Below, piece by piece: positions 1 through 17,287 of a stretch of 21,854 bases of DNA. Under the pieces are notes generated by a model that ran no database searches, had not been told where the DNA came from, and saw only the letters and a program-made list of their open reading frames with translations. Source of the stretch: a virus; the IMG/VR virus record IMGVR_UViG_3300032820_000143, positions 1-21,854 of that record. One strand, 5' to 3'. The translations under genes were made by a program, and so were the position numbers. Every line of letters begins with the position of its first letter. Within the stretch, counting starts at the first letter, position 1.

Positions 1-3000
1 TTGACACAACGTCATTACATCATAAACAGTATTAAAAGCATCATTAAGAAATTTAAAATCTACTCTACCAGCTGCTTGATTACCTTCGTCTAACTGTATC
101 TGAAAATGTCTTTTATCAGCAGTTCCTCCACAATCATACATTCTCAAAATGGCTCCAGTTTCACCCTCAATCAAAACATTCGCAAAGGAAGTAGTATCTT
201 TAACATGCAATCCACTGCCACTGATATCAACATCTCCAGTTCCCCAATTAGCGAACGGTGCATCAGTTCCGATTCCTACGTTGCCATCATACTGAATTCT
301 CATTTTTTCTGATGGTGTAGAACCATGAGTTCTTGTAAAAAATAGAAGATTTCCAGAATAAACACCATCACTAGCAGATTCTTTTCTACCTTCAATTACT
401 GCCCATCGTGTATCAGTAGTACTACCACTATACTTACCACCAAAAGAAATAGAACCACCACGTTGAGTTGTAGATGCATCAGTTGTAAATAGGAAAATAT
501 TGCCATAACCACTTCCACCAGTGGGGTCATCCCATTCTTTACCAACAGTTATACCAGCACAATTCCCTGTTGTATGACAAGAACCAACTGTAAGTAATGA
601 AGTCGGCGTTGCAGTTCCGATGCCTACGTTGCCACTACCTCCAACATGAAGAACTACACCATTTGAATTATTGAAATTTGCAATAGGATATGTAGCCGTA
701 GTTGTTCCTCTACCAAAATAATGAAATGGTGTTGTGCCACCAGTAACATTATCAAACTGATATTTTGCTACTGAATCTATTCCAATATTAACTTTACCAT
801 CAGAAGCAATTCTCATTCTTTCTGTAGCTGCTGTTGCACCATCAGGTGTTGTAGAAAAAGTCAGTCGACCAGGCATATCATTAGAGCCTGGAGTTCCATC
901 TATATAACCTTCTATTTTAGCTGCAAGTTCGTGATTTACCGAATCGTGTCCAAGAAATGATATTCTTCCCAATAAATCACCATCTGCAATTACTGAAGAA
1001 GATGCAGCCGTTCCTCTTGATTTATTTAATCTAATTATACTAGCTGCTGTTGCAGATGTTGCATGAGTAGAAACTGTTAATACATTTGTAGCATCATTTA
1101 CTAGATGCAATTTTGTGTCTGGTGAAACAGTTCCGATTCCTACATTTCCACCACCAAAATAAGAATCCCCATATGAATCAAGTTTAACTCTAAGGTTGGC
1201 TCCATCATATATATTGAATTTTTTAGATCCCTGTATGCCATCATAAATAAGTACTTGATTACCAGCAGGACTGAGATGTATATTGCCATCAGATTTAATA
1301 TATCCAGTTGCTTCATTACCTATTCGAATATCACCCCGAACTTCTAATTTATCACTAGGCGTGTCAGTTCCGATACCCACGTTACCACTATACTCACTAA
1401 GTATTACATTACCACTAGCATATGCTTCTATAACAGGCAACCCAGAAGTGTCATTAGCAGAGAATAGTACATCACTCAAATCATCAGAAACACTTAATAA
1501 TTCACCAGCAGTACCATGTACTTCAAATTTGTCTGTAGGAGCAGTAGTTCCGATTCCTACGTTGCCACCAACAGGTTGCAATAACATATCGTATGCAGTT
1601 GCACCATCATTTCTCATCACTTGTGACCAAGCAGCTCCAGTAGTGGTGTTTATACCAAAATATTGACCATATAAATTGGTGTCACCTGAGATAAATAATG
1701 CACCTTGATTTGTGCCTAATGTGGGGTAGGAAGTATCTGCGGCCTGTGTAACATGCAACTTTGTTCTAGCCCATAAAGTTCCAATGCCAAGATTTCCAGA
1801 AAAATAAGATTGTCTAGCACTACCACTAAAAAGTGAATAACTTTGTGCTGGTACATTATAATCCCCAATAGCACCAATCATTAAATTCACATTAAAATTT
1901 CCAGACGTTTGTTCGGCTATAGTAATGCCACGTTTATTATAGATGAACCCACTACCCGATTCAGTAGCATCATTGACTTGAATTCCTGCCGATGTATGCA
2001 TCCCATGACCAGAAGTAGGTATATTAAAATCACCATCTATTAATAATTGATAATTATCCGTTGCATTAGCCCCAACTTGAGTAGTATCTATATGCAACCC
2101 TGCACTAGGACTAGTAATTCCGATTCCTACGTTGCCACCTCTTTCTATTACCATATCATCATTTGCACCATCTGGTCTGAAAGAAATGTAATCTAAATCT
2201 GTATAATTACCTTGTGCGCCAATAACAAATTTATTGTTGGTAGAATCTAACGCTACAAAAGTTTTATTAGTACCATTAATTGCAAAATTTTGTTGAATCC
2301 ACACTTCTCCAGCATTATCAAGAGTTAATTGATTTCCATTACCACCCTTTACATGCAATACATTAGATGGTGCAGTAGTTCCGATTCCTACGTTGCCAGA
2401 TTTAGTAACTGTGACTTTATTTTGACCATCACCAGTATCAACTTTGAATAAATCGGGATCGCTGTAAATTGATTTTGCAGTAATAGCATGAGTAATATTT
2501 GAATCAGTAACAAATGTATCCGTATCAGTAATTGAAGATACAGTAAAACATTCCATCACTGAATTATCAGATGCACCACTAGGTATTAACACCGCATCAC
2601 CCACATTTAATCCGTGAGCAGAAACAGTATTTACTATAGAACTACTACCACTGGCAGTAGCATTTCCTAAAGATACGCCAAATGTACCGCCTACATGTAA
2701 GCTAGAAGTTGGACTAGTAGTTCCAATACCTACAGTTTGAGCCCCTGTCCCAACCCAAGCCGCCCCCATATTGACGGCAACATTCCGACAAATTCTCATC
2801 CCCTCATTAAAAACGTCTGAAAATTGAGAACCGAATCTCAAGGCTGTATTATTACTGGCGATTGCACCATCAGATGTTGATTTATGCGTTCCCAATGAAA
2901 TAGAAGAAACACCTTTAGCTGTATCACTAACATTATCCCTACTAATACCGAAAGCCCAGCCATAAGAATCGCTTGCTTTTATTGAATGACGAATAAATAA

Positions 3001-6000
3001 AGGTGTTTGATTCTCACTTGCACAACTTTCACCACAAACAGTTAATGACTGCTGAGTATATACCGGCTCAGAAACCCCAATGCCAACATGACTGCCAAAA
3101 ACAATAGGATTAGTTTGTGTTGCAGTTGTTGTTTCACCATGTAGTTCATTGCCAGAAGTGTCTAGCCAGCGTGTAGCTCCAATAGAAGTGGGCAAATATT
3201 CTGCCACATTTCCTACTTGAGTGATTGACAGATTAGAAACCACAAAAGTTACTAGTCCAGCCGCATGAGTTTGACTTATTTTTAAAGCTAAATCCTCACC
3301 AAGCGTATAATTAGTTATGGGCCCATAAGGAAGTGTCGCTTCAACCGTATGAGTTCCAACAGTAGCTGGAAATGTGTCAAAAGTAGCAATGGTAGTGCCA
3401 ACATTCCTTTCATTCAGAGTCGGATTCATTGCCACACCAGACCCTGAAGATACACTATCAATAGTAATTGACACACTGTATCGCTTACCGTTGTTAAACA
3501 AAGAGCCTGATATGGAATCTAAAGCAATACCTGCACTTGTGCCACTACTATCTGGAAAACTGAATTGTAAGTTATTAGACACATTAGTCACAGCCCCAGA
3601 GTTATACCAAGTTATCCAATTACCAATTCCACCACCATCACCATTGGCCGAATCACCCGTTACTAAGGATGTCTGAGATGCACCCACATATTGATATGGA
3701 ACTGACTGACCATTATAAGATGCTTTGACTTCATCAGCAGACAAAGCTCTGTTGTGCATACGAACAGTAGAAATGTCACCATCCCAAAAGTAAGCACCAA
3801 AATTCCAAGCAGTTCCAACATACATGTGAGAAACAGGACTAATATCACCACTTTGTCCAGTAACATCACCAGAAGCAACAGCCACACCATCAATATAAAG
3901 TTTACTACTAGTAGAATCCGTTCTATCTAAAACCCCAACCATGTGATGCCATACACCAGTTGATAATACTTCTGATCCATTGATATTTACATTAGTACCA
4001 CTATCTGATAAAGAAAGATTTGGAGTTCCGTCAGCATAAAGGCCAAGATTCCAACCATCAGTAGTAGCTCCCTGATAAGTTGAAATTATATTTCTAATTG
4101 CACCAGTAGAATTTGTTTTAACCCAAGCCTCCCAAGAGAAATTACCAGTGCCAGGAATATTATCTGTGTTATAGGAAAGTTGTATATAATCATTTGTGCC
4201 ATCAAAATGGAAACTAGCTCCACTTTGTAAATCGTTTACCGTTTGACTATTGACTATACGATTGGCATAATGGTCTTGGGTGCCATCTTGACGAATAGTT
4301 AATTGTGAATCACTTATCTGGACATTACTTGAATCTTGTGCATTGTCAACGGCAAAATGTAATTCTCCTCTGCCATAATTACCTACATGAGAGAAGAAAA
4401 CACCACCTTTAATATAGGCAAAACTTGTTGTTGAAGCTGTTTGTAAATAAATTCCAGCATAAGTTCCATCAACATCTGAATCACTTTGAATTGTTATTGT
4501 TTGGTTGGAGCCAGCATCTTTACCAACATGCAATAAATTTTTGGGTGCTGGGGTTCCGATGCCTACGTTGCCATCATTTCTAACATAAAATGCTGAAACT
4601 CCAGAATTTGGTGCAACATTAAACGCATATTTATCGTTATCCGCATTATCTACTCTTACGTATAAACCATAACCAGTAGATGAGGAGTTTTCCAGATGCC
4701 CAATGGTATTACCATTTAAACTAGCCTTGGCACAAATCTTACCAATAACTGACAATGTTGCGCCTGGTGAAACAGTTCCGATTCCTACATTGCCAGAACC
4801 ATCTATATTAAGAATATGATTATTTCCCCAATGACCCAAACTCAATGTATTACGATTATCAGCATCCGCACAATATCTATAACCAATCCAAGCTGAATTC
4901 TTAGAACTGCCCTCTTTTCCCACTACAATAATATTTGATTGTGTATCCGTTATATTAGATGTGAATACTTCGATGCTATGAATAAATCCACTAGAAGATG
5001 AATTATCTATTGCAAGAGAAGGACAATGTGCAATTCCAGTACCAGATATGTTTAATTTTGCATCTGGTGAAACAGTTCCGATTCCTACGTTGCCAGAAGT
5101 ATCTATAACCATATCAGTCCCAGAACCAGTAGTTCTAAACGTCATTCGATCATTACTATGTTGATAAGTTATAGATCCTCTATTATCATCTTCTGCATCA
5201 CCAAAATTTAAGAGTGAAGTTCCTGCATTACCAGAAATTATACTGATTCCAGAATTATCAGATGTAGAAGTATTATTAGCAACCACTAATTTTTGTACTG
5301 GTGCATCAGTTCCGATTCCCACATTACCACTATACTCACTAAGTATTACATTGCCAGAAGCTTCTGCTTTTATAACTGGCAATCCAGTAATATCATTGGC
5401 AGAGAATAATACGTCACTCAAATCATCTGAGACGCTAAGTAGTTCACCAGAACTGCCATGAACTTCAAATACATCTGTTGGCGCAGAAGTTCCTATACCC
5501 ACAGTACATCCACCAAGAACTAAAGCACATGCAGATGAAGATACTGCATAGTAACCGATTGCAGTAGCCCCCGCAGCAGTTGCACAAGAACAAGCACCGA
5601 AGGAAGAACTAGCAACTCCAGTTGAACAACTGCCACGGCCAACAGCAGATGCATCAATTGCCGTTGCTTGAGGAAAGCTTCCTAATGCAGATGAATAATC
5701 AGCAGTTGCCTTTGAATAAGAACCATATGCCACTGCATAAGTGCCTGATGCACAAGCATTTCTACCTACTGATGTTGATTGTGAACCATATGCACAACTC
5801 TGATATCCAAATGCAGAAGCACCGGATTGATTTGCTATAACACCATATCCAACACCGATTGCACCTGTTCCAGTTACTGTATTATTCCCATATCCAACAT
5901 TTCTAGAAATAACTGTGTCAGAAGAAACATATGCTTCATTTGATGGGATTGCACCAGCAACAGTTAAGTCAATAGCGTTAGAGCTTGAGTCATGCCACGT

Positions 6001-7254
6001 TGTTGCTAATTGTGAAATTCCTTCTGACAAATATTCTGCGGAAGCACCTATTTGAGTTATAGAGACATCATCGATATAAAAAACACCACCACCAGTTGTA
6101 TATCTAAGTATAATAATGCCATTATCTGGATCAGACCCCGAACCGGCAGTAAATTCAAATGAATATTTGACCCATGAGGAAGTGATTGATGTTAGGGTTC
6201 CAATGCCACCTATCGGTGGTGTTCCTCCACCAACTACAGAACCGTCATCATCTCCAGGATTCACCCCACCAGTATCATGTGTCCTAAGATAAAATCCCTC
6301 ATTCGAGCCAGTAGCACCTTTAGCCCATAAAGAAATTCTATACTTTTTACCTGTAATAAATGATACAGATTGCTTAATACCCGCCCAATTATTACTGACA
6401 TTTATAGTGAACTTGGCACTATGGGAACCCCCATGTTCATTCGATGTATCATCTGTTACTTCACTTGTAGTTCCTGACTGAGCTATTTTAGTCCAATTAT
6501 CTGGTGTATCACCCGTCCAACTCTCAATACCAGCATCAGTAAGCTTCTCTGTCTGAACAGCACCTTGATGTGAATAATCTACAGATTTACCAGTATATAA
6601 TTTAGCAACATCTGAAGATGATAGTGCTAAATTGAAAACCCTAACTTTAGAAATTTCACCATCAAAATAATTACTGCCCCATAACGATTGACCAATAGAG
6701 AAATCAGTTGAAACAGTATCAGTTAGAGTATAAGATGAAGTAGTCCAATCCTGTGCACCATCAACATAAGCAGTTAGATTTGTGCCATCATAAGTCAAAA
6801 CCACATGATGCCATTTACCATCATTTAAATTCGTACCTGTTCCGGGACTATAATCATCCGCCTTGCCTACGAATCTCAGATAAGAATTGTCACTTGAATC
6901 AACAAGAAATAATCCGAAATTACTGCTATTAGTATTATCACCCCAAATAGCAATGGCACCGCCATCATTAGAACCTTGCCCATTCAGCTTAATTAAAGCC
7001 TCTATTGACCTTGGAAGTGTCCCAGAGGGCATAGAATCAGTAATGGCAGTAGTCGCAGAAGCATTATCATTAGTACCATCAAAATGCAGAGATTTATTGT
7101 CTTTACCCGCTACAACTAAAGTTGTACTTTTTACAACATCAGCACCACCAAAATGCAAATTCCCATTATCATTTTTAAGATGGTAATCAACATTACCATT
7201 ATTCTTAAATTCGATTGCACCATCAGCCGGAGTAATAAGTACATCTAGAGCCAT
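1..7254 (-). CDS. Giant modular tail fibre / adhesin, 3' end beyond left edge
   Basis: The reading frame opens at ATG 7254 and runs without a stop to base 1 (at least 2418 codons), so its C-terminus lies outside the window. The start is set by GAGGTGA seven bases upstream. Visible order: short N-terminal segment; LamG-like sandwich (~50-220, with FDGTNDN and WHHVVLTYDG); jelly-roll carbohydrate-binding-like domain (~230-400); eight 14-residue YadA-head-like repeats (465-576); GNVGIGT-type modules; second LamG (~1005-1185, FDGTNDY, WHHMVGVLDR); second jelly-roll-like domain (~1190-1350); then more GNVGIGT modules to the edge. Such modules are known from phage fibres and bacterial surface proteins that often end in a self-cleaving intramolecular chaperone (peptidase S74); that end is inferred and not visible. 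Probably a homotrimeric receptor-binding fibre. It starts 12 bases after the 148-residue gene ends, so it is co-transcribed with it. The fibre class is well supported; the receptor is unknown. Confidence 0.9.
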   Translation of the reverse strand, partial: MALDVLITPADGAIEFKNNGNVDYHLKNDNGNLHFGGADVVKSTTLVVAGKDNKSLHFDGTNDNASATTAITDSMPSGTLPRSIEALIKLNGQGSNDGGAIAIWGDNTNSSNFGLFLVDSSDNSYLRFVGKADDYSPGTGTNLNDGKWHHVVLTYDGTNLTAYVDGAQDWTTSSYTLTDTVSTDFSIGQSLWGSNYFDGEISKVRVFNLALSSSDVAKLYTGKSVDYSHQGAVQTEKLTDAGIESWTGDTPDNWTKIAQSGTTSEVTDDTSNEHGGSHSAKFTINVSNNWAGIKQSVSFITGKKYRISLWAKGATGSNEGFYLRTHDTGGVNPGDDDGSVVGGGTPPIGGIGTLTSITSSWVKYSFEFTAGSGSDPDNGIIILRYTTGGGVFYIDDVSITQIGASAEYLSEGISQLATTWHDSSSNAIDLTVAGAIPSNEAYVSSDTVISRNVGYGNNTVTGTGAIGVGYGVIANQSGASAFGYQSCAYGSQSTSVGRNACASGTYAVAYGSYSKATADYSSALGSFPQATAIDASAVGRGSCSTGVASSSFGACSCATAAGATAIGYYAVSSSACALVLGGCTVGIGTSAPTDVFEVHGSSGELLSVSDDLSDVLFSANDITGLPVIKAEASGNVILSEYSGNVGIGTDAPVQKLVVANNTSTSDNSGISIISGNAGTSLLNFGDAEDDNRGSITYQHSNDRMTFRTTGSGTDMVIDTSGNVGIGTVSPDAKLNISGTGIAHCPSLAIDNSSSSGFIHSIEVFTSNITDTQSNIIVVGKEGSSKNSAWIGYRYCADADNRNTLSLGHWGNNHILNIDGSGNVGIGTVSPGATLSVIGKICAKASLNGNTIGHLENSSSTGYGLYVRVDNADNDKYAFNVAPNSGVSAFYVRNDGNVGIGTPAPKNLLHVGKDAGSNQTITIQSDSDVDGTYAGIYLQTASTTSFAYIKGGVFFSHVGNYGRGELHFAVDNAQDSSNVQISDSQLTIRQDGTQDHYANRIVNSQTVNDLQSGASFHFDGTNDYIQLSYNTDNIPGTGNFSWEAWVKTNSTGAIRNIISTYQGATTDGWNLGLYADGTPNLSLSDSGTNVNINGSEVLSTGVWHHMVGVLDRTDSTSSKLYIDGVAVASGDVTGQSGDISPVSHMYVGTAWNFGAYFWDGDISTVRMHNRALSADEVKASYNGQSVPYQYVGASQTSLVTGDSANGDGGGIGNWITWYNSGAVTNVSNNLQFSFPDSSGTSAGIALDSISGSLFNNGKRYSVSITIDSVSSGSGVAMNPTLNERNVGTTIATFDTFPATVGTHTVEATLPYGPITNYTLGEDLALKISQTHAAGLVTFVVSNLSITQVGNVAEYLPTSIGATRWLDTSGNELHGETTTATQTNPIVFGSHVGIGVSEPVYTQQSLTVCGESCASENQTPLFIRHSIKASDSYGWAFGISRDNVSDTAKGVSSISLGTHKSTSDGAIASNNTALRFGSQFSDVFNEGMRICRNVAVNMGAAWVGTGAQTVGIGTTSPTSSLHVGGTFGVSLGNATASGSSSIVNTVSAHGLNVGDAVLIPSGASDNSVMECFTVSSITDTDTFVTDSNITHAITAKSIYSDPDLFKVDTGDGQNKVTVTKSGNVGIGTTAPSNVLHVKGGNGNQLTLDNAGEVWIQQNFAINGTNKTFVALDSTNNKFVIGAQGNYTDLDYISFRPDGANDDMVIERGGNVGIGITSPSAGLHIDTTQVGANATDNYQLLIDGDFNIPTSGHGMHTSAGIQVNDATESGSGFIYNKRGITIAEQTSGNFNVNLMIGAIGDYNVPAQSYSLFSGSARQSYFSGNLGIGTLWARTKLHVTQAADTSYPTLGTNQGALFISGDTNLYGQYFGINTTTGAAWSQVMRNDGATAYDMLLQPVGGNVGIGTTAPTDKFEVHGTAGELLSVSDDLSDVLFSANDTSGLPVIEAYASGNVILSEYSGNVGIGTDTPSDKLEVRGDIRIGNEATGYIKSDGNIHLSPAGNQVLIYDGIQGSKKFNIYDGANLRVKLDSYGDSYFGGGNVGIGTVSPDTKLHLVNDATNVLTVSTHATSATAASIIRLNKSRGTAASSSVIADGDLLGRISFLGHDSVNHELAAKIEGYIDGTPGSNDMPGRLTFSTTPDGATAATERMRIASDGKVNIGIDSVAKYQFDNVTGGTTPFHYFGRGTTTATYPIANFNNSNGVVLHVGGSGNVGIGTATPTSLLTVGSCHTTGNCAGITVGKEWDDPTGGSGYGNIFLFTTDASTTQRGGSISFGGKYSGSTTDTRWAVIEGRKESASDGVYSGNLLFFTRTHGSTPSEKMRIQYDGNVGIGTDAPFANWGTGDVDISGSGLHVKDTTSFANVLIEGETGAILRMYDCGGTADKRHFQIQLDEGNQAAGRVDFKFLNDAFNTVYDVMTLCQ
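1363..1569 (-). repeat. Three-copy SDDLSDVLFSAND module, copy A (giant fibre)
   Basis: It encodes the module as in copy C (TAGELLSV, NDTSGLPVIEAYASGN, SEYSGNVGIGTD). Ser in the LSDV stretch is AGT here and TCT in copy C, so the two are not a recent copy. Confidence 0.9.
5302..5509 (-). repeat. Three-copy SDDLSDVLFSAND module, copy B (giant fibre)
   Basis: It encodes the same module as copies A and C with several replacements (SSGELLSV, NDITGLPVIKAEASGN). It follows the YadA-head-like repeats directly. Confidence 0.9.
5527..5862 (-). repeat. Eight exact 42-base-period repeats, YadA-head-like
   Basis: Starting at base 5862 (residue 465) the frame can be cut into eight consecutive 14-residue units, each opening [A/S]xxxG (for example ASAFGYQS, AVAYGSYS, SSALGSFP, ATAIGYYA). 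A ninth unit (ALVLGGCTVGIGTS) merges into the next GNVGIGT module. The pattern matches the left-handed beta-roll repeat of YadA-type trimeric adhesin heads. Seven cysteines fall within about 105 residues here. Confidence 0.82.
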
Positions 7255-7268: not shown

Positions 7269-7713
7269 AAGAAATCCCGATATCAGAAGGAACCCACTCT
7301 TCACCACGTAGTTCATTAAGAATTTCAAAATGGGTATAACCCTGACTTTTTGTTGTTAATGAATCTACACTTGAAGGAATTTCATCACCACTTCTGCCCG
7401 GATATTTAACATCACCAACACGAATTGCTGTTTGCTTAACATCACCAAGACTCACATTACTGTCATACATCACATCATTTTCATCAAGTGCTGAGTCACC
7501 CTCTTCATAAAGCTCTTCTTCCCGAATTTCCGGGTCACCCTCTTCATACAGAATTTCTTCTTGTGCTGGTGCCGGCTCATACTTAATTAGGGCTTTAGTT
7601 CCATCATTTGACAATCTTAAAGTTTCTTTTGATGTTTGCAAAACCTGACCAAAATCTATTAAATCAACTTCACTCATCTCGAAAATTACATATCTTCTAT
7701 TTGCAGGTACCAT
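7267..7713 (-). CDS. 148-residue fibre-cluster protein with acidic repeat insert
   Basis: The product is a small soluble protein with no signal peptide or membrane segment. Residues ~7-46 (YVIFEMSEVDLIDFGQVLQT and the next twenty or so) and ~115-141 (SLTTKSQGYTHFEILNELRG, then EEWV) look like two halves of one small domain. From memory this resembles short uncharacterised proteins beside fibre genes in marine phages. Between the halves, residues ~47-112 are acidic and contain EEILYEEGD and EEELYEEGD 13 residues apart, plus two GDVK motifs, which suggests an inserted low-complexity linker. ATG 7713 overlaps the TAA of the upstream LamG gene by one base (TAATG), and the giant fibre follows 12 bases later. 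A fibre-assembly or adaptor role is plausible from position only; the function is unknown. Confidence 0.75.
   Translation of the reverse strand: MVPANRRYVIFEMSEVDLIDFGQVLQTSKETLRLSNDGTKALIKYEPAPAQEEILYEEGDPEIREEELYEEGDSALDENDVMYDSNVSLGDVKQTAIRVGDVKYPGRSGDEIPSSVDSLTTKSQGYTHFEILNELRGEEWVPSDIGIS
7495..7560 (-). repeat. Two 27-base direct repeats encoding EE(I/E)LYEEGD
   Basis: Copies at 7560-7534 and 7521-7495 have a 39-base period and stay in frame. They encode the two acidic nonapeptides inside the 148-residue protein and look like a small tandem duplication. Confidence 0.8.
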
Positions 7714-9368
7714 TATAATCCATATCTTCCTTTATGTGCGTTAAAATTTTGCAATACTTCTGTGGCTGTTAATGCCCTATTATGAAATAAAACACTAGAT
7801 ATTTCTCCCTGAATTTCATAATAACCGCCGTGTGATCCACCCACAACAGTATTAGCGGTAGTATCTGGAATAGGGGTTAACCCCCAAGGTTGTGAAGGGT
7901 TAAAAGTGCCAGCATCTTCAACACCATCAACATACATTTTGGCAATTCCTGTTGAAGCCGTGTATGTAGCTACAATGTTATACCACTGACTAGCAGACCA
8001 ATTTGTTTTAGTAGAGTATTGAATAAAATATGTCCCGTTAGAATTTTTTAACTCCCAATACAATTTACTGCTTGCCTTTTGCCAAGCCAAAAAATAAGAC
8101 CTTTGAGTATCCACATCCCTTTTGCTTAATATACAATTATAAGATTGGGGTTGTGAGGCTGGAACTACATCTAAATTCACCCAAGCAGATATTGTCATAG
8201 CAGAAGCAGAATAAACATCTCCTGATATTGCTCTATCATCAACACCATCGAAACTGAAATCATTATTATGTGTACCTGGTACATTTGTAGCAGTATACGT
8301 TAATGCAGTTAAATCAGCATGATTACCATTACCAGTTAAATCTCTCCAACCATCAGTGGCTGATCTTGCAGTAGAACCAGTGAATCTAGTGGCATGTGAA
8401 TTTGCTTCTATTTGATAATCGCAAATATCAACATATTTTTTAGTACTATTTTCGAGGTGGGGACCACCCGTACCAACACCAGAATTTACTATAGTAAAAT
8501 AAGAATACAAATTACCATAAGTCTGAGAACCATTTGTAGTCCATTGCTTTTCGTGAAATTGCCATTCATCTGTAGGTATAAGGCTTGAAGTGGGAGGAGT
8601 ACCCCCATACACCCCACCTCCGCCATACCAATGTGTTAAACTGAAGGCTTGTCCCGTATTACCTCTATACCAAAAAGAAAGGGAATATGTTGTAGCTAAT
8701 TGAATATTATTCCCATAAACACCATATGCCAGAGCATCACTCCAACCCATACCCTGAGCCCATAATCTTATAAAACGCTGATTTTCTGGACCGCCCTCAG
8801 AAATTAATTCTTTCACTATATGCTGATTGGGCTTATGTGCATATCCCCACCAACTAGTAGGAAAACTAGATGAACTGATTGATATTGGAGTTCCACCATT
8901 TAAATATAAACTGTCATGCACTTTATGATGCCCAGTTACAGGATTAATATAACCTTGAGAACCATCTTGAGATGCATTATATGCATGTAAGGTAAATGTT
9001 CCAGTATTACCAGAATCAAGTCTTTTTATAAAATAATAAGTGCCAGAAGTTACACCGCCACCACTAGTCTGTGGAAATATAGCATCATACGTTCTTAAAG
9101 TTGTAGAATTCCCACCATATGAATTAAAGGTGACTATATTACTAGAAACACTAGCAATGCCTAAAGTGAAATAACTATTACTATTATACTGAGAAGCATT
9201 ATATGTTCCCCATTGATTTCCTGGACCAAATCTGCCATTAATATCAGCACCAACACCACTAGATAATAAATTGGTAGCAGGTTCACCCAAATAACTACGT
9301 TTATTATACTTATCTAAGTATAAAACCAACCCATCTCTAACAATTTTTGGCCCATATACATTAGCCAT
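7713..9368 (-). CDS. LamG-shell adhesin with large inserted jelly-roll-like domain (551 aa)
   Basis: The N-terminus (YGPKIVRDGLVLYLD, SYLGE) and C-terminus (ALTATEVLQNFNAHKGRYGL) match the three upstream paralogues, so all four share one LamG-like shell. Here the shell is interrupted at about residue 32, just after the SYxG motif, by roughly 300 residues. The shell resumes with DGWRDLTGNGNHADL near residue 340 and continues with FSFDGVDDRA and the LamG strands WVNLD, YNIVATY and KMYVDGVED. The insert ends with features of carbohydrate-binding modules (YSLSFWYRGNTGQ, then YQIEANSHATRFTGS). It is probably a virion adhesin that binds surface glycans. It is coupled by TAATG at both ends. The fold is assigned by motif reading only, and the inserted domain could belong to another beta-sandwich family. 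Confidence 0.85.
   Translation of the reverse strand: MANVYGPKIVRDGLVLYLDKYNKRSYLGEPATNLLSSGVGADINGRFGPGNQWGTYNASQYNSNSYFTLGIASVSSNIVTFNSYGGNSTTLRTYDAIFPQTSGGGVTSGTYYFIKRLDSGNTGTFTLHAYNASQDGSQGYINPVTGHHKVHDSLYLNGGTPISISSSSFPTSWWGYAHKPNQHIVKELISEGGPENQRFIRLWAQGMGWSDALAYGVYGNNIQLATTYSLSFWYRGNTGQAFSLTHWYGGGGVYGGTPPTSSLIPTDEWQFHEKQWTTNGSQTYGNLYSYFTIVNSGVGTGGPHLENSTKKYVDICDYQIEANSHATRFTGSTARSATDGWRDLTGNGNHADLTALTYTATNVPGTHNNDFSFDGVDDRAISGDVYSASAMTISAWVNLDVVPASQPQSYNCILSKRDVDTQRSYFLAWQKASSKLYWELKNSNGTYFIQYSTKTNWSASQWYNIVATYTASTGIAKMYVDGVEDAGTFNPSQPWGLTPIPDTTANTVVGGSHGGYYEIQGEISSVLFHNRALTATEVLQNFNAHKGRYGL
7725..7733 (-). promoter_or_regulatory. SD-like tract in KGR codons before ATG 7713
   Basis: AAAGGAAGA encodes the KGR of the upstream protein's final KGRYGL and ends 11 bases before the TAATG overlap at 7715-7711. 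The same arrangement is found at three other junctions. Confidence 0.6.
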
Positions 9369-10099
9369 TAAAGTCCGAACCTTCCCTTGTGTGCATTATA
9401 GTTTTGTAACATTTCTGTAGCTGTTAGAGCCTTACTATAAATCCTAACCACTGAAATATATCCAGCCATTGGATACCATTGCATAGTGCCATTAGCTATT
9501 CTAATTTGAGATATATCCGTACTCCAAGCTCCAAGACTATCTGTAGAAGAATTTACTTGTAATCCATATTCATAAAGAACTTTTTTAGTTGAAGCATTTA
9601 GATCTACTGTATATCCAATATGATTCCAACTACTAACTGCTGCATTACCACTAACGGCACTAGTGAAATAGAGGGAACTAAATGTACCTGAATCATCCGT
9701 GTAATAAGCTGCCGTATTATTGCCACTCCAATTTGCCCGTATTGAAAAAAAATCCCTTTCGGCATATGGAGAACTAGCCCCATCTGGATGGTGAATATCT
9801 ATCAACATATCATTAGAGTCATTATTAGACAACTTATACCACATCTCTATAGTTCCAGCACCAAATAAATTTGTATGAGAAAAATTCGTAATCAAAGCCG
9901 AATCATTACTACCATCAAAAACTAAAGCCCCTTGCCAAGAGCCACTAAAAGTTGGGCCATTTATCAATGATGCATTGTGACCTTCACTACTCAAGTCACT
10001 CCAAGTAGTGCCACTACCCGAATAACTACGTGTATTAGCGGCATCTAAGTATAATACCAATCCATCTCTAACAATATTAGGGCCCCATTTTGTAGCCAT
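9368..10099 (-). CDS. Minimal LamG-shell adhesin (243 aa)
   Basis: This is one of two paralogues that show the LamG shell without an insert. The order is: N-terminal WGPNIVRDGLVLYLDAANTR, SGTTWSDLSSEG, strand ALVFDGSNDSA, IEMWYKLSNND, SWNHIGYTVDL, a region ending RIANGTMQWYPM, and the closing helix and tail ALTATEMLQNYNAHKGRFGL. The pattern (a short peptide ending in LDA, then an FDG-containing strand, then a W-H-hydrophobic strand) is typical of LamG/concanavalin-like domains in phage and bacterial adhesins, which usually bind sugars. No signal peptide is present, as expected for a virion protein made in the cytoplasm. TAATG overlaps link it to both neighbours. It probably works as a small receptor-binding or decorating adhesin; the ligand cannot be read from the sequence. 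Confidence 0.85.
   Translation of the reverse strand: MATKWGPNIVRDGLVLYLDAANTRSYSGSGTTWSDLSSEGHNASLINGPTFSGSWQGALVFDGSNDSALITNFSHTNLFGAGTIEMWYKLSNNDSNDMLIDIHHPDGASSPYAERDFFSIRANWSGNNTAAYYTDDSGTFSSLYFTSAVSGNAAVSSWNHIGYTVDLNASTKKVLYEYGLQVNSSTDSLGAWSTDISQIRIANGTMQWYPMAGYISVVRIYSKALTATEMLQNYNAHKGRFGL
9380..9388 (-). promoter_or_regulatory. SD-like tract in KGR codons before ATG 9368
   Basis: AAGGGAAGG overlaps the KGR codons of the upstream C-terminus and ends 11 bases before ATG 9368, which shares its first base with the upstream TAA (TAATG). Confidence 0.6.
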
Positions 10100-10785
10100 T
10101 ATAGTCCGTACCTGCCTTTATGGGCTTCAAAATTCTGTAATATTTCTGATGCTGTCAAAACTCTATTATAAGCTAAAACAAAGCCGATTTCTCCATTAGT
10201 TCTTTCAGTATCACCATTTAGATATCGACCAACTGTTAAGCCATTCGGCCCTTGTGTCCCGCCACCTGGCCCCCAACTAGCATCCTCACCGCCATAAACA
10301 CCATTCGTATAAATCAGACGATTATCAGCACTATAATCTTCTGTACAAGTATATATTCGCCAAGCAGACATAAAAGCAGTATCACCTGTCTCATCAGGAT
10401 TTGTTGCACCAGTATATCTAATCCACCCTTCAGCATAATACACATTAACTTTACTAGAATAATTACCAAGCAACCAATTGTTGTTTCTACCATTAAGCAT
10501 TCTGCCGCCAGACCCAGTAACATACCTTTGGGCTACAACAATAGATATATCTGAATAACGATAATCAGGCAATGCTATATTAATCAGACTACCACTGCTT
10601 CCAGATGTTACTAGAACTCCGGCATTATTAGTACTAAATGTACAATTTTGCACATCTCCATCATAACCATTACCGGTTAAATCAGTCCAAGTAGTTCCAC
10701 TTCCCGGATAGCTAAGAGTGTTAGCAGCATCCAAGCATAATACAAGTCCGTCAGTAACAAGATTTGGCCCATATATTGTACCCAT
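10099..10785 (-). CDS. Minimal LamG-shell adhesin (228 aa)
   Basis: This is the shortest member of the four-gene family. It opens with YGPNLVTDGLVLCLDAANTL, followed by GSGTTWTDLTGNGYDGDV, and closes with VLTASEILQNFEAHKGRYGL. The central part (RMLNGRNNNWLLGNYSSK, AWRIYTCTEDYSAD, GLTVGRYLNGDTERTNGE) follows the beta-sandwich order of a LamG-like fold, with a shorter strand region than in the 243-residue neighbour. The region around residues 50-75 lacks the usual FDG tripeptide, so this copy may have a changed binding face. It is probably a virion-associated adhesin. It is coupled by TAATG at both ends, and the RBS of the next gene is inside its own last codons. Confidence 0.82.
   Translation of the reverse strand: MGTIYGPNLVTDGLVLCLDAANTLSYPGSGTTWTDLTGNGYDGDVQNCTFSTNNAGVLVTSGSSGSLINIALPDYRYSDISIVVAQRYVTGSGGRMLNGRNNNWLLGNYSSKVNVYYAEGWIRYTGATNPDETGDTAFMSAWRIYTCTEDYSADNRLIYTNGVYGGEDASWGPGGGTQGPNGLTVGRYLNGDTERTNGEIGFVLAYNRVLTASEILQNFEAHKGRYGL
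10111..10119 (-). promoter_or_regulatory. SD-like tract in KGR codons before ATG 10099
   Basis: AAAGGCAGG encodes KGR of the upstream KGRYGL and ends 11 bases before the TAATG overlap at 10101-10097. Confidence 0.6.
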
Positions 10786-12440
10786 TAGAGTCCGAACCTT
10801 CCTTTGTTAGCTTCAAAGTTTTGTAATACTTCTGCTGCTGTAAGTGCTTTACTGCTATAAATTCGCACTATACTTATTTTACCATCCCATTCAAAGTCAG
10901 CAGAAGAAGTACCCCCACCCCTTCCCACTTGAAAATTAGAAAGAAATGTAAATGAGTTATATGAAGTGCCAGCCGTTGCATCTAAAACTCCATTAATATA
11001 TAAACGAACTTTATCATCAGTGCTATTCATTACAAAAGTCACATTAGTCCAATTAGTTGTCACATCTGCACTTGAAGTAACACTTGCATTACTATTCCCA
11101 ATACCTCCATACCATTTACCTATTGTTCCGAATCCTTTACCGAAATACGCCCTTGAAGTGCCACTGTGATGAGTTGGTGCTAAAAACATTAATGAACCAG
11201 AAGTTGAATCAGTTTTCACCCAACAGTCAAAACTGAATGAAGTAGTAGATGGATTTAAACCATTCCCCCAAGTTGTAGTAGCATATTGGTCAGTACCATC
11301 AAAATCAAAGTAAAACTTTCTGTCAGCATACTTTCTATGGTACCTTACTATAACTATCCCAGAACCGCCATTTCCGCCTTGATTGGTTGCGTTGTAGTGA
11401 CCACCGCCACCACCACCGCCCCCAGTATTAGCCCCAGCATTACCACCAGGTGTTTGAGCCCATTGCTCTGTATTCCCTCCGCCACCAGCACTTCCTGTAT
11501 TTATACCGGAACCGCCAGTGGTTGTCCCTACAGAACCACCTCCGCCACCACCTGCGCCACCATCACCGCCAATAAGAACATACCCGGATGCGCCACCGCC
11601 ACCTGCCCAATAATAGTTATTGCCATCTATATTAATTTGTAACCCAATACCACCATGAGGCCTATTAGTTGCAGAACCACCCACACCACCGGCTCCGCCA
11701 CCGCCACCGCTATAAAAACCCTGTTGACCGTTACCGCCAGCATTTCCGAAACCAATACCACCTGCTGAAGCTTGAGTGGCACTAGACCCAGTTAGGGTGT
11801 TACCACTATTTTCTCCATTGCCAGCATAACCATAACCGCCAACACCCCCACCAGAACCACCAGTACTACCATAACCGCCCCCCGTACTATATGACCATCT
11901 ACCCGTTCCACCATAACCACCACCATTAGCAGTATATCCAAAAGCAGTAGTATTATTACCCGCTACGCCTTGGACATTATGCTCATGATTTGTATTTTGT
12001 CCGCCGGTACCAGCCGCTGGTGCTCCCGCTCCCCCACTTCCTACCACAATAGCATGTGTTGCCGCAGAAATTGTTATTTTTTCTGCATGAATCAATCCGC
12101 CTGCACCGCCCCCACCACCCATGTCCATACCGCCACCGCCACCGCCAGCAACAATTAAGACATCAGCTTCTAAAGGTACATTAGTGACGAAATTTGTAGA
12201 CCCGGTATTAGTAAATGTATGAACTATATAATCACCAAAAACACCTACTGTCCCGCCAGTAACTTCTGCTGAACTCACAAAATCACTTTCAAGCGCAGGT
12301 TCATTCACTAACGTCCCGTCATTAGAACCTACAGGGTCTGTCCAAGTAGTATCTCCACCAGCATGGCTGATGCCATTATTCGCATCTAGACATAAAACCA
12401 ATCCATCTGTGACAAGATTTGGGCCAGCTATTCCACCCAT
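10785..12440 (-). CDS. LamG-shell adhesin with nested glycine-rich domain (551 aa)
   Basis: It has the shared shell start (AGPNLVTDGLVLCLDANNGI, then TTWTD) and end (ALTAAEVLQNFEANKGRFGL). At about residue 55 the shell is interrupted by a block that begins with the usual lead-in of glycine-rich phage domains (VHTFTNTGSTNFVT, DVLIVAGGGGGG). It continues through ~265 residues dominated by G, with S, A, N and T, and closes with GGSGIVIVRYH near residue 367. LamG then resumes with FYFDFDGTDQYA, FSFDCWVKTDS, NWTNVTFVMNS, VRLYINGVLDA and FQVGRGGG. Glycine-rich adhesin domains of this sort are known from phage tips such as gp38-type adhesins, where polyglycine helices pack into a sandwich; that this one folds so is inference. 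It follows the 1615-residue fibre through a TAATG overlap with a good SD (AGAGGTGG), so it may form or cap the tip of that fibre. Confidence 0.88.
   Translation of the reverse strand: MGGIAGPNLVTDGLVLCLDANNGISHAGGDTTWTDPVGSNDGTLVNEPALESDFVSSAEVTGGTVGVFGDYIVHTFTNTGSTNFVTNVPLEADVLIVAGGGGGGMDMGGGGGAGGLIHAEKITISAATHAIVVGSGGAGAPAAGTGGQNTNHEHNVQGVAGNNTTAFGYTANGGGYGGTGRWSYSTGGGYGSTGGSGGGVGGYGYAGNGENSGNTLTGSSATQASAGGIGFGNAGGNGQQGFYSGGGGGAGGVGGSATNRPHGGIGLQINIDGNNYYWAGGGGASGYVLIGGDGGAGGGGGGSVGTTTGGSGINTGSAGGGGNTEQWAQTPGGNAGANTGGGGGGGGHYNATNQGGNGGSGIVIVRYHRKYADRKFYFDFDGTDQYATTTWGNGLNPSTTSFSFDCWVKTDSTSGSLMFLAPTHHSGTSRAYFGKGFGTIGKWYGGIGNSNASVTSSADVTTNWTNVTFVMNSTDDKVRLYINGVLDATAGTSYNSFTFLSNFQVGRGGGTSSADFEWDGKISIVRIYSSKALTAAEVLQNFEANKGRFGL
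10797..10805 (-). promoter_or_regulatory. SD-like tract in KGR codons before ATG 10785
   Basis: AAAGGAAGG encodes KGR of the upstream KGRFGL and ends 11 bases before the TAATG overlap at 10787-10783. Confidence 0.6.
11340..12150 (-). repeat. Glycine-codon-rich low-complexity tract
   Basis: The coding strand is dominated by GGN codons encoding glycine runs, seen on the plus strand as ccaccgccaccacc-like strings. It is locally much richer in G+C than the rest of the window. It stays in frame and holds no separate gene. Spaced GG pairs and a G6 run at 11883-11878 could form local DNA or RNA structure. Confidence 0.85.
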
Positions 12441-15400: not shown

Positions 15401-17287
15401 ATCTACTTCCCCTCTAATAGAACCTTTAACTTCCAATAACCCTTGAGGTGCAGTGGTTCCTATACCTACATTACCGTCTGATAATATTTTTACTCTAGTA
15501 GTACCACCAGGCTGAAGATTAATAGGAATAGTGCCAGAAGTTTCTATTTGCATTCCGGAAGTAGTGCCAATCAATCGACCTCTCATTGCATCAGCCTGAG
15601 ATAAATCTAAAATCCCACCAGAAGTTGCATCATTTATCTCTAATACTGTATATCCAGAAATAGAAGTTGGTGAAATGGTTCCGATTCCTACGTTACCATT
15701 TGAATCTATTGCAAAATGTGGAGAATCTAAACCTGCACCAGCTTTTATCCCAAAATATGGTATTGTTTGATTTACACCTAAGCTGAAATTATTTGTTCCC
15801 GCAGATGTAACAAATTCAAGCCAATTCCAAGAACTTGAACCACTACCCTTTAATCTTACAGATGGATTTCCACCATATACTTCTAACCCCTGATATGTAT
15901 TTTCTGGATTATCTGTTCCAATGCCCACATTACCACTATATTCACTTAAAATAACGTTGCCAGAAGCATATGCTTCTATAACGGGTAACCCTGAAGTATC
16001 ATTGGCAGAAAACAACACGTCAGACAAGTCATCAGAGACACTGAGCAACTCTCCAGCAGTACCGTGAACTTCGAACTTGTCCGTTGGCGAATCAGTCCCG
16101 ATGCCCACGTTACCCGTGCTGTAATAAATATCGCTACTACTAGTTGTCCACTGTGATTGATTTGGTATTGAGGCCCAACTTCCATCTTTTCTTAAAAATT
16201 CATTAGCATGTGTGCCATGTCCTGCTAAAACGAGACCCGCAACATATGAGTTGCCAGCCCCCATAACACTATATGTAGTATTGTTCGGTGAGGCCCAACT
16301 TCCATCTTTTCTTAAAAAAGTGCTATTGTGTGTACCACTTCCAGCAGCAACTAAGCCAGTAGCATAAGAATTCCCAGAACCCATTGTGGTACCCACCCCA
16401 CCATCAGCTTTAAGAAACTGAGATGAAGTGCCACTGGTTTTTATAAACGAAGTGGCTTCAACAGCCTGACCAGTAATAAACTTATCACCACTACTGGAAT
16501 AAGTTATGGACTTTAATGCTGTTGTTCCCGGAATGACAATACCAGAATCAGTAGCTTTAGCATCTGTAGTATTACTGACAGAATGATGTATGGCTCTTGT
16601 TGTAGCAGATGTAGCTGTCGTTGGTATCGAAAAACTATTTGTGCCTATATAAGTAGTAACATAAACATCTGTAGGCACTCCAGAAGCTCCATTAGCATCA
16701 GCATCAATATAAACAGATTGACCATTGGTAATAGAATGACCATTAGAAGTTATAGTTGCTATCGTCCCATTAGTTACAACACCCGCTTCAATCATTCCCC
16801 CGGGTACACCTAGTGCTAAGGTCTCATCTTCAACTATTGTAGAAGTAGTATTTAATTGAGTCGTTACGCCCTGGACATCTAGATTGCCACTTACTGTCAA
16901 ATCACCAGATAAATCTAAGCTGGCAAAAGACACATCATCTGTAGCTGTAATACCTTGCCCCCAACTCAAATTCCCATTAGATCCGTCTGTGATTAGGGCT
17001 TGACCCGCAAGCCCCTGAGTTCCGGGCAAAGTTATAGTTATATTAGATGCTACTGATGCTGGGGCTTGAAGCGCCACATAATTAGTTCCATTTGTAGTTG
17101 CTTCTTCAAACCTAACATCATACTGATTTTTTATTAGCAGATTTCCGCCTGCTACAGTAAGAACACTGATATCACTATCAAATTCAACTCGTTCTGAAAC
17201 TGCATCAATGCCTACAAAACCTTTATTGGGAACTGTTAATGCAAAAGCAGCTTCGACAACCTCACGGCCATCAAAATAAACAGGCAT
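12440..17287 (-). CDS. Large modular tail fibre with two LamG domains (1615 aa)
   Basis: Start ATG 17287 has AGAGGA six bases upstream. Visible order: N-terminal FDGREVVEAAFALTVPNKGF; an FEEAT...ITLPGT repeat; DLTVSGNLDVQGVTTQLNTT, a segment typical of marine phage fibres; two copies of a 40-residue repeat ending FLRKDGSWAS (~325-375); GNVGIGT modules at ~393, 451, 530, 605 and 1013; LamG-like domains at ~630-850 and ~1035-1260, both preceded by IRGExDSYTKLLIHSDTTDN; a second FEGAT...TITLPNNTGTVAL repeat near 1330; two TALSxWAGTxNITT repeats; and a C-terminal domain (~1530-1615: YTRGKLSGDD, ELPEYWTGLVDEN, FYLVHAERKDVDKLEIEVDA). The C-terminal domain resembles fibre ends of marine phages. This is probably a trimeric long fibre, with the next gene supplying an accessory tip. 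Confidence 0.92.
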   Translation of the reverse strand: MPVYFDGREVVEAAFALTVPNKGFVGIDAVSERVEFDSDISVLTVAGGNLLIKNQYDVRFEEATTNGTNYVALQAPASVASNITITLPGTQGLAGQALITDGSNGNLSWGQGITATDDVSFASLDLSGDLTVSGNLDVQGVTTQLNTTSTIVEDETLALGVPGGMIEAGVVTNGTIATITSNGHSITNGQSVYIDADANGASGVPTDVYVTTYIGTNSFSIPTTATSATTRAIHHSVSNTTDAKATDSGIVIPGTTALKSITYSSSGDKFITGQAVEATSFIKTSGTSSQFLKADGGVGTTMGSGNSYATGLVAAGSGTHNSTFLRKDGSWASPNNTTYSVMGAGNSYVAGLVLAGHGTHANEFLRKDGSWASIPNQSQWTTSSSDIYYSTGNVGIGTDSPTDKFEVHGTAGELLSVSDDLSDVLFSANDTSGLPVIEAYASGNVILSEYSGNVGIGTDNPENTYQGLEVYGGNPSVRLKGSGSSSWNWLEFVTSAGTNNFSLGVNQTIPYFGIKAGAGLDSPHFAIDSNGNVGIGTISPTSISGYTVLEINDATSGGILDLSQADAMRGRLIGTTSGMQIETSGTIPINLQPGGTTRVKILSDGNVGIGTTAPQGLLEVKGSIRGEVDSYTKLLIHSDTTDNSATFIDSGSTGHTITVGSDASHQDTKQKFGGTSIYFDGTDDNLSLSSHSDWQMDGEFTIESWVYLNSSNNNFNPIFSSHAFLSTNYDGQFTLQIDGSDTALKAHFYVSTGVGVGLHVDLIGTSTFSVANWYHVAVTRDSSDDIKLFVNGVEEATVNDSTTLHTTASDIYIGRRGVSAPTCINGYLDEIRISKGVARWTEDFTPPARAYSTVDNEFFADYDNIVTIDRKNWNTAYDWGNHSSPGYLTAEVNNLSTVTGTLGIANGGTGQTTAALAASALGVGTEDSPQFSGLNIENTGHGASLTIKTQGGIEGAAHSRIYFDGADDGSGNCRYGTIESYIVDNADTSEHGRLSFSTVVDGIDTEYVHITSGNLGVGTNNPQDKLEVRGGIRGEADSYTKLLIHSDTTDNSTDFVDSGSTGHTINVTNDTSHQDTEQKFGDTSIYFDGTDDYLSTSDSGDWHFGSGDITYDFWLRTSTVSGVQVILTQYQSITENMSLYLLNDEVCWEDKTGNSHSGRRVLTSDVDLVVNTWYHVAVVKNSSTAKIYVDGVEKGSSSFSAGTDFSAGIDIGGQGGVGYYYTGYLDEIRVSKGIARWTENFAVPQSPYSTVNDEFFTAHQESVGKVYAIESPDAAAWYNIPYLSPTGPANDFRAVHSDDNALQFNPSVNQIGFDGSLYLYGTNQAIFFEGATANDFETKIVVTDPTADRTITLPNNTGTVALTTDITATAVGLGNVENTALSSWAGTSNITTVGTIGTGTWNGAAIADTYISSASTWNGKQDALTFGIANTNTVVINSTSVADNDFAKFTASGLEGRSYAEVKTDLTLNSVENTALSTWAGTTNITTLGDVVTCSGMAVDGALTATTKSFDIEHPTKEGKRLIYGSLEGAEHAVYTRGKLSGDDTIELPEYWTGLVDENTITVQLTAMGGHQDLWVEEIMDNKIKIGANRIPVSCFYLVHAERKDVDKLEIEVDA
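12448..12455 (-). promoter_or_regulatory. Shine-Dalgarno before ATG 12440
   Basis: AGAGGTGG lies inside the codons for the last residues of the 1615-residue fibre, seven bases before ATG 12440. The stop and start overlap as TAATG (12442-12438). Confidence 0.7.
13500..15445 (-). repeat. Duplicated leader-plus-LamG module inside the 1615-aa fibre
   Basis: Two copies of a leader plus LamG unit lie 1224 bases (408 codons) apart, near 15445-14700 and 14215-13500. The stretch coding for DSYTKLLIHSDTTDNS is nearly identical at DNA level (around 15360-15400 and 14136-14176). The LamG parts have diverged much more than the leaders. Confidence 0.85.
15911..16115 (-). repeat. Three-copy SDDLSDVLFSAND module, copy C (1615-aa fibre)
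   Basis: It encodes GELLSVSDDLSDVLFSAND, then TSGLPVIEAYASGNVILSEY and SGNVGIGT. Its peptide matches copy A in the giant fibre gene almost residue for residue, while many third positions differ. Confidence 0.9.
16170..16318 (-). repeat. Two FLRKDGSWAS repeats, 120-base period
   Basis: The stretches 16170-16198 and 16290-16318 are identical over about 28 bases and exactly 120 bases apart. They encode the end of a 40-residue repeat (GxGNSYxxGLV, then GTHxxxFLRKDGSWAS) of the kind found in tail-fibre stalks. Confidence 0.85.

Follow-up and report, generated by a model that had tools for sequence, protein, structure and literature searches.

Trimeric autotransporter heads, such as those of YadA (1p9h), BpaC (7o23), UspA1, EibD and CbpF, belong to the LPBR family PF05658 and repeat a 14-residue layer, GxNSVAIGAxSxAx. 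In the published layer numbering, glycine occupies position 8, residues 5 and 7 lie in the trimer core and surface charges are found at positions 2 and 10, with position 3 of one chain close to position 10 of the next (PMC9543794). For a head of the YadA class, folding of the monomer in the absence of the other chains is described as unlikely (PMC2942831). The YadA head is a classic module of bacterial adhesins that is also known from phage fibres, and it has hardly any cysteine. A pelagiphage tail fibre with a YadA domain was reported in 2014, with S74 in the same figure (PMC3909814). Regarding cysteine-rich virions, disulfides join the chains all along the tail of phage Milano, the trimeric tailspike and the short fibre included (PMC10811340), and those of phage 7-7-1 form a network in the capsid (PMC12796354). 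Here we describe a phage fibre whose YadA head bears seven cysteines. It resembles the proteins of Milano and 7-7-1 in being a cysteine-rich virion protein; however, the proteins and folds differ, and disulfides are proven in those two phages, whereas those of this fibre are putative. No description of an exposed cysteine ladder on YadA phage fibres was found in the open literature, which leaves most subscription journals outside; the YadA head in a phage fibre is already known, and the ladder is the new element as far as this literature shows.

The stretch analysed (the window) is the entire virus contig IMGVR_UViG_3300032820_000143, of 21,854 bases. It encodes a portal-like protein, an S78 head-maturation protease and a Phage_capsid-like protein, matches that identify it as a tailed-phage fragment. 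The giant fibre ORF (7254..1, minus strand) covers at least 2,418 aa, its C-terminus being past the contig end, and was assigned from its open frame, its domain matches and its similarity to cyanophage tail fibres. By profile search it carries two Laminin_G_3 domains, a CBM_4_9 and a YadA_head, together with a dozen xVGIG repeats, and a 1,418-aa part is about 30-40% identical to tail fibre or structural proteins, mainly of Synechococcus phages. Compared with the autotransporter heads, this one belongs to a phage fibre, has cysteines predicted to be exposed and comes with no C-terminal YadA membrane anchor in the encoded part, the C-terminus lying beyond the contig. Phage tail spikes and fibres with such a head also include the uncultured Caudovirales protein A0A6J5N9Q0 and the tail spike of Flavobacterium phage immuto (QQO92087), whose GDYSHAEG layers are YadA-type and have no cysteine.

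Other repeated elements surround this fibre. A 235-nt fibre module (repeat D1; PTDxFEVHG...NVILSEYSGNVGIGT) is present at 1339-1573, 5281-5515 and 15887-16121. Its copies are 71-78% identical and divide between two different fibre genes, the one directly after the YadA head being that head's exit module (GIGTSAPTDVFEVHG..., 5281-5515, minus strand); the three copies are a sign of apparent module shuffling within the window. In addition, a 96-nt direct repeat at 16169-16384, with copies 120 bases apart and 73% identical, lies in a gene for a 1,615-aa fibre. At 7713-12440 (minus strand), four consecutive genes share alike N-termini (GPxxVxDGLVLxLD) and C-termini (LTAxExLQNFxAxKGRxGL), and Laminin_G_3 was found in two of the three tested, the third being weak and below the cut-off.

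The head itself consists of nine 14-residue layers with no insertion or deletion (aa 462-587; 5494-5871, minus strand), which become window 5473-5850 when glycine is taken as the first residue. It is entered through a segment (AYVSSDTVISRNVGYGNNTVT; 5872-5934, minus strand) that aligns with entry modules of a giant fibre from another contig, G001, described below. The original prediction of eight units at 5485-5862 was essentially right, and the exact 42-base period that it had proposed holds as a codon period but not at the DNA level, where the head copies are too diverged and Tandem Repeats Finder called no repeat. Identity at a lag of 14 residues is 0.29, compared to 0.11 in shuffled sequences (maximum of 5,000 shuffles, 0.25). 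As in the autotransporter heads, glycine occupies position 8 (9/9 layers), small residues occur at positions 4, 6, 11 and 13, and hydrophobic residues concentrate at positions 5 and 7, with 1.33 per layer against 0.56 at positions 12 and 14. Due to the motif and to the polar residues found at these sites in other phage heads, positions 4, 6, 11 and 13 are taken as the probable roll interior and positions 12 and 14 as solvent-facing.

The YadA-type fold that had been predicted for this region is supported by a PF05658 match of 28 bits on a 187-aa segment, over the curated cut-off of 25 (26 bits in the genome search). A phmmer search of PDB sequences with the window head returned BpaC (8e-11), CbpF, a Hep_Hag protein, EibD, a trimeric autotransporter adhesin and YadA, and a profile of this head and eight related phage heads matched ten PDB sequences, nearly all named as of the trimeric autotransporter type (BpaC 3e-65, YadA 4e-12). 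The UspA1 head is also among the PDB sequences matched. AlphaFold2 models the monomer as a beta-solenoid, most layers having pLDDT 81-95, and the best viral structure matches of this model in BFVD are phage proteins named YadA-like (probability 1.00), two of which have TM scores on the query of 0.70 and 0.58. When this monomer model alone was compared with the PDB by Foldseek and VIA, YadA heads were absent from the listed matches. Also named YadA-like head in BFVD is a Pithovirus protein (A0A481ZG68), and such heads may occur in giant viruses. The YadA repeats and their register are directly visible in the window head, and we infer a trimeric left-handed parallel beta-roll; the homotrimer of the original prediction is still a predicted one, suggested by membership of this family and by an S74 chaperone at the end of three relatives.

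Seven cysteines, each encoded by TGT, are present among the 126 residues of the head (5.6%), the number noticed earlier, against 11 among the 2,292 residues of the rest of the fibre (0.48%). The other main ORFs of the window together contain 16 cysteines in about 4,800 residues. Position 12 holds Cys487 in layer 2 (5794-5796), Cys501 in layer 3 (5752-5754), Cys543 in layer 6 (5626-5628) and Cys557 in layer 7 (5584-5586), while Cys555 in layer 7 (5590-5592) and Cys583 in layer 9 (5506-5508) are at position 10, and Cys576 in layer 9 (5527-5529) is at position 3, all codons being on the minus strand. The sharing of one layer position by four of the seven has a chance of about 0.006 for seven random positions. 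Following the published numbering, together with the facing assigned above to positions 12 and 14, 7/7 cysteines are at outward positions and 0/7 in the core or interior. The equivalent loops in which they had been placed are in part borne out, as there is a repeated site, but by the published numbering this site belongs to the outer strand, on its solvent-facing side, and not to a loop. The four cysteines at position 12 (Cys12) form two adjacent pairs, in layers 2/3 and 6/7, which could be chance.

To place these counts, a viral background was drawn from at least 120 viral stretches with a YadA-layer DNA pattern in which cysteine is not required, the final counts using a neutral register definition in which cysteine is allowed at any layer position. 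Among the matches listed, the unselected viral heads amount to 78 loci and 1,113 layers; just 12 of their 29 cysteines are at outward positions, and Cys12 is found in two layers, both in locus L031, which is itself cysteine-rich. A bacterial background, from 200 genomes of one phylum of which 26 had heads, gave 390 layers from 25 loci, with five cysteines and no Cys12. The cysteines are therefore unusual, as had been supposed, and non-random: Cys12 occurs in 4/9 layers of the window, and against the 2/1,113 viral layers among the matches listed Fisher's test gives p 3e-8, a value to be read bearing in mind that layers within one protein are not independent and that the window was chosen after the cysteines had been noticed. 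A coincidental cysteine cluster in low-complexity repeats would agree with so small a number, seen after the fact; nevertheless, this Fisher value and the independent recurrence described below, one unselected locus included, make coincidence highly improbable. Close relatives of the head itself were not found in a scan of viral contigs, nor did tblastn against 50,697 phage records give a match, low-complexity masking being probably on. Scanning bacterial genomes with a cysteine pattern yielded 80 matches, with short repeats flagged in 18 and none YadA-head-like.

Cysteine-rich relatives were found among other phages. A Cys12 DNA pattern retrieved G001, L008, L216 and L217, in addition to two loci without YadA layers; having been selected in this way, these four have Cys12 rates with an upward bias, whereas L031 was not selected for Cys12, and the restriction to outward sites at other positions is only partly affected by the selection. 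The contig G001 (IMGVR_UViG_3300032360_000016, 47,865 bases) encodes two giant fibres (L210/L211), one of 5,815 aa with 330 cysteines (4577-22021) and one of 4,346 aa with 133 (24128-37165), and PF05658 matches 55 places on it. Together, the two fibres take up about 30 kb of the 48-kb contig. In about 165 layers of the 5,815-aa fibre, cysteine is at position 12 in 49%, at position 3 in 16% and at position 10 in 14%, figures that rest on a layer definition barring cysteine at some positions. The window fibre aligns to this protein over aa 448-744, comprising the entry module, head and exit module, with 35% identity (E 3e-31), GYQSCAYG standing over GYFSCATG and SACALVLGGC over TACALVLGGYC; a second stretch, aa 1423-1637, is aligned as well. 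The 5,815-aa fibre is, as judged from this alignment, a sequence homologue of the window fibre, with the entry and exit modules common to both. A relative scan with the G001 fibre returned only G001 itself.

The heads of L216, L217 and L008 are made of the same kind of YadA layers with cysteines and, like the 5,815-aa fibre, L031 and the window, bear them at positions 12, 10, 3, 2 or 14. Counted as outward/buried, the cysteines are 7/0 in the window, 191/11 and 12/0 in the G001 fibres, 15/0 in L008, 12/1 in L216 and 18/0 in L217. At the C-terminus of the 5,815-aa fibre and of the L216 and L217 fibres, Peptidase_S74 (PF13884) is matched with 38-47 bits. A T4 neck protein is encoded on both G001 and L216, the latter having a T4-type sheath stabiliser as well, and these contigs are accordingly T4-like, while the capsid and protease matches of the window are of another type; the same module thus seems to occur in different phage lineages. 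Such a distribution, suggested by sequence comparison, is better supported than the exchange of parts between bacterial adhesins and phage fibres proposed in the original prediction, which 14-residue repeats cannot demonstrate. Cysteine-decorated YadA heads are, from these comparisons, a recurrent phage variant, proposed here as a distinct class and having Cys12 in many layers and often also cysteine at positions 3, 10, 2 or 14.

It could be argued that position 12 is simply a tolerant surface site, where cysteine replaces serine or threonine almost neutrally and is spread by duplication and exchange of layers. The layers are clearly duplicated, a single base change turns serine into cysteine, outward positions are tolerant of substitution and, the window and 5,815-aa fibres being homologous, their cysteines are not independent. 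However, cysteine at the same site recurs in fibres without close overall similarity (L217 and L008), and the window fibre keeps its cysteines in the head and not elsewhere. Moreover, it is mostly the fibre-type proteins that are cysteine-rich, the content being 0-0.8% in the neck, sheath and baseplate-type neighbours of the same contigs, and 0.23% and 0.18% in a 2,588-aa and a 549-aa protein next to the G001 fibres. Because the neighbouring proteins are so poor in cysteine, neutral drift is disfavoured and we regard this explanation as distinctly unlikely. The four cysteine-rich relative fibres that were measured contain 1.9-4.4% cysteine outside the head too, compared to the 0.48% of the window fibre. 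As separate observations, a 449-aa neighbour of the G001 giant fibres has 4.9% cysteine, several adjacent fibre-like ORFs at L031:588-9962, on a contig not selected for cysteine, have 3-5% each, and sulfotransferase-family genes (PF13469) adjoin the cysteine-rich fibre on two contigs (L211:5026-5856 and L008:1442-2296).

As for the role of the ladder, the original prediction had offered metal coordination, disulfides after release or stacking along the trimer. We propose, with slightly less than even confidence and by analogy, that the head thiols may oxidise after release into cross-links that lock the trimeric beta-roll fibre. On every face of the trimer, the outward thiols would be arranged in rows at the published layer spacing of about 4.8 A, being kept reduced during fibre folding in the host cytoplasm. 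After lysis, they would be oxidised to disulfides between layers, between chains or with neighbouring fibre or surface molecules, which could stiffen or covalently lock the adhesin, a giant receptor-binding fibre with a presumed role in host attachment. Candidates in the window would be the stacked Cys12 pairs of layers 2/3 and 6/7 and the Cys3/Cys10 pair across the chain interface in layer 9. Cross-linking after release seems the most economical reading because Milano and 7-7-1 have disulfide-bonded virions.

The pairs counted in the 5,815-aa fibre fall short of proving this proposal. Adjacent Cys12-Cys12 pairs are in slight excess (44 vs. 37.4 expected, p 0.03), while Cys3 and Cys10 within one layer are not enriched (1 vs. 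3.8), so that no simple disulfide rule emerges, and for this fibre we discard general inter-chain pairing of Cys3 with Cys10, keeping it as a possibility for the last layer of the window. Cys2 and Cys10 in one layer are found 8 times vs. 2.0 expected, an excess that comes largely from one duplicated layer type (SCxSLSVGICTQA), the pair counts not being independent. Residues stacked in register at about 4.8 A have a less than ideal geometry for disulfides, which counts against the disulfide step. In the main rival reading, thiols that stay reduced would bind metal ions up and down the ladder, or would glue the fibre to the host chemically by reacting with thiols or disulfides on its surface, in agreement with the regular outward rows, position 12 above all, with the lack of a clear pairing rule and with the many layers having a single cysteine (70/162). 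Nevertheless, free thiols on a virion in oxic water are not expected to last, and we consider this reading unlikely.

Cross-links could also be needed during folding and assembly only. The protrimer of the P22 tailspike forms transient inter-chain disulfides, and similar bonds might set the register of the three chains here, as giant homotrimeric repeat fibres face a register problem and three relatives carry an S74 chaperone. Tens to hundreds of cysteines per chain, though, exceed what chain register needs, and ordinary phage YadA heads manage with almost none, making such a transient role improbable.

Taking the fibres together, we put forward, as a possible though on balance doubtful generalisation, that some environmental phages, both T4-like ones and the apparently non-T4-like phage of the window, may build giant trimeric fibres with outward thiol ladders on YadA-type heads, of several to hundreds of thiols per chain, as a redox-controlled cross-link or a reactive surface for host attachment. 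Since the cysteines of different phage lineages keep to the predicted outer face, a surface thiol ladder seems to be under selection. The layer register gives exact predictions of which residues would pair or stay exposed. If real, the ladder would amount to a nanoscale scaffold of regularly spaced thiols, open to expression and testing, and would give virions a new means of stiffening a fibre or of adhering to the host.
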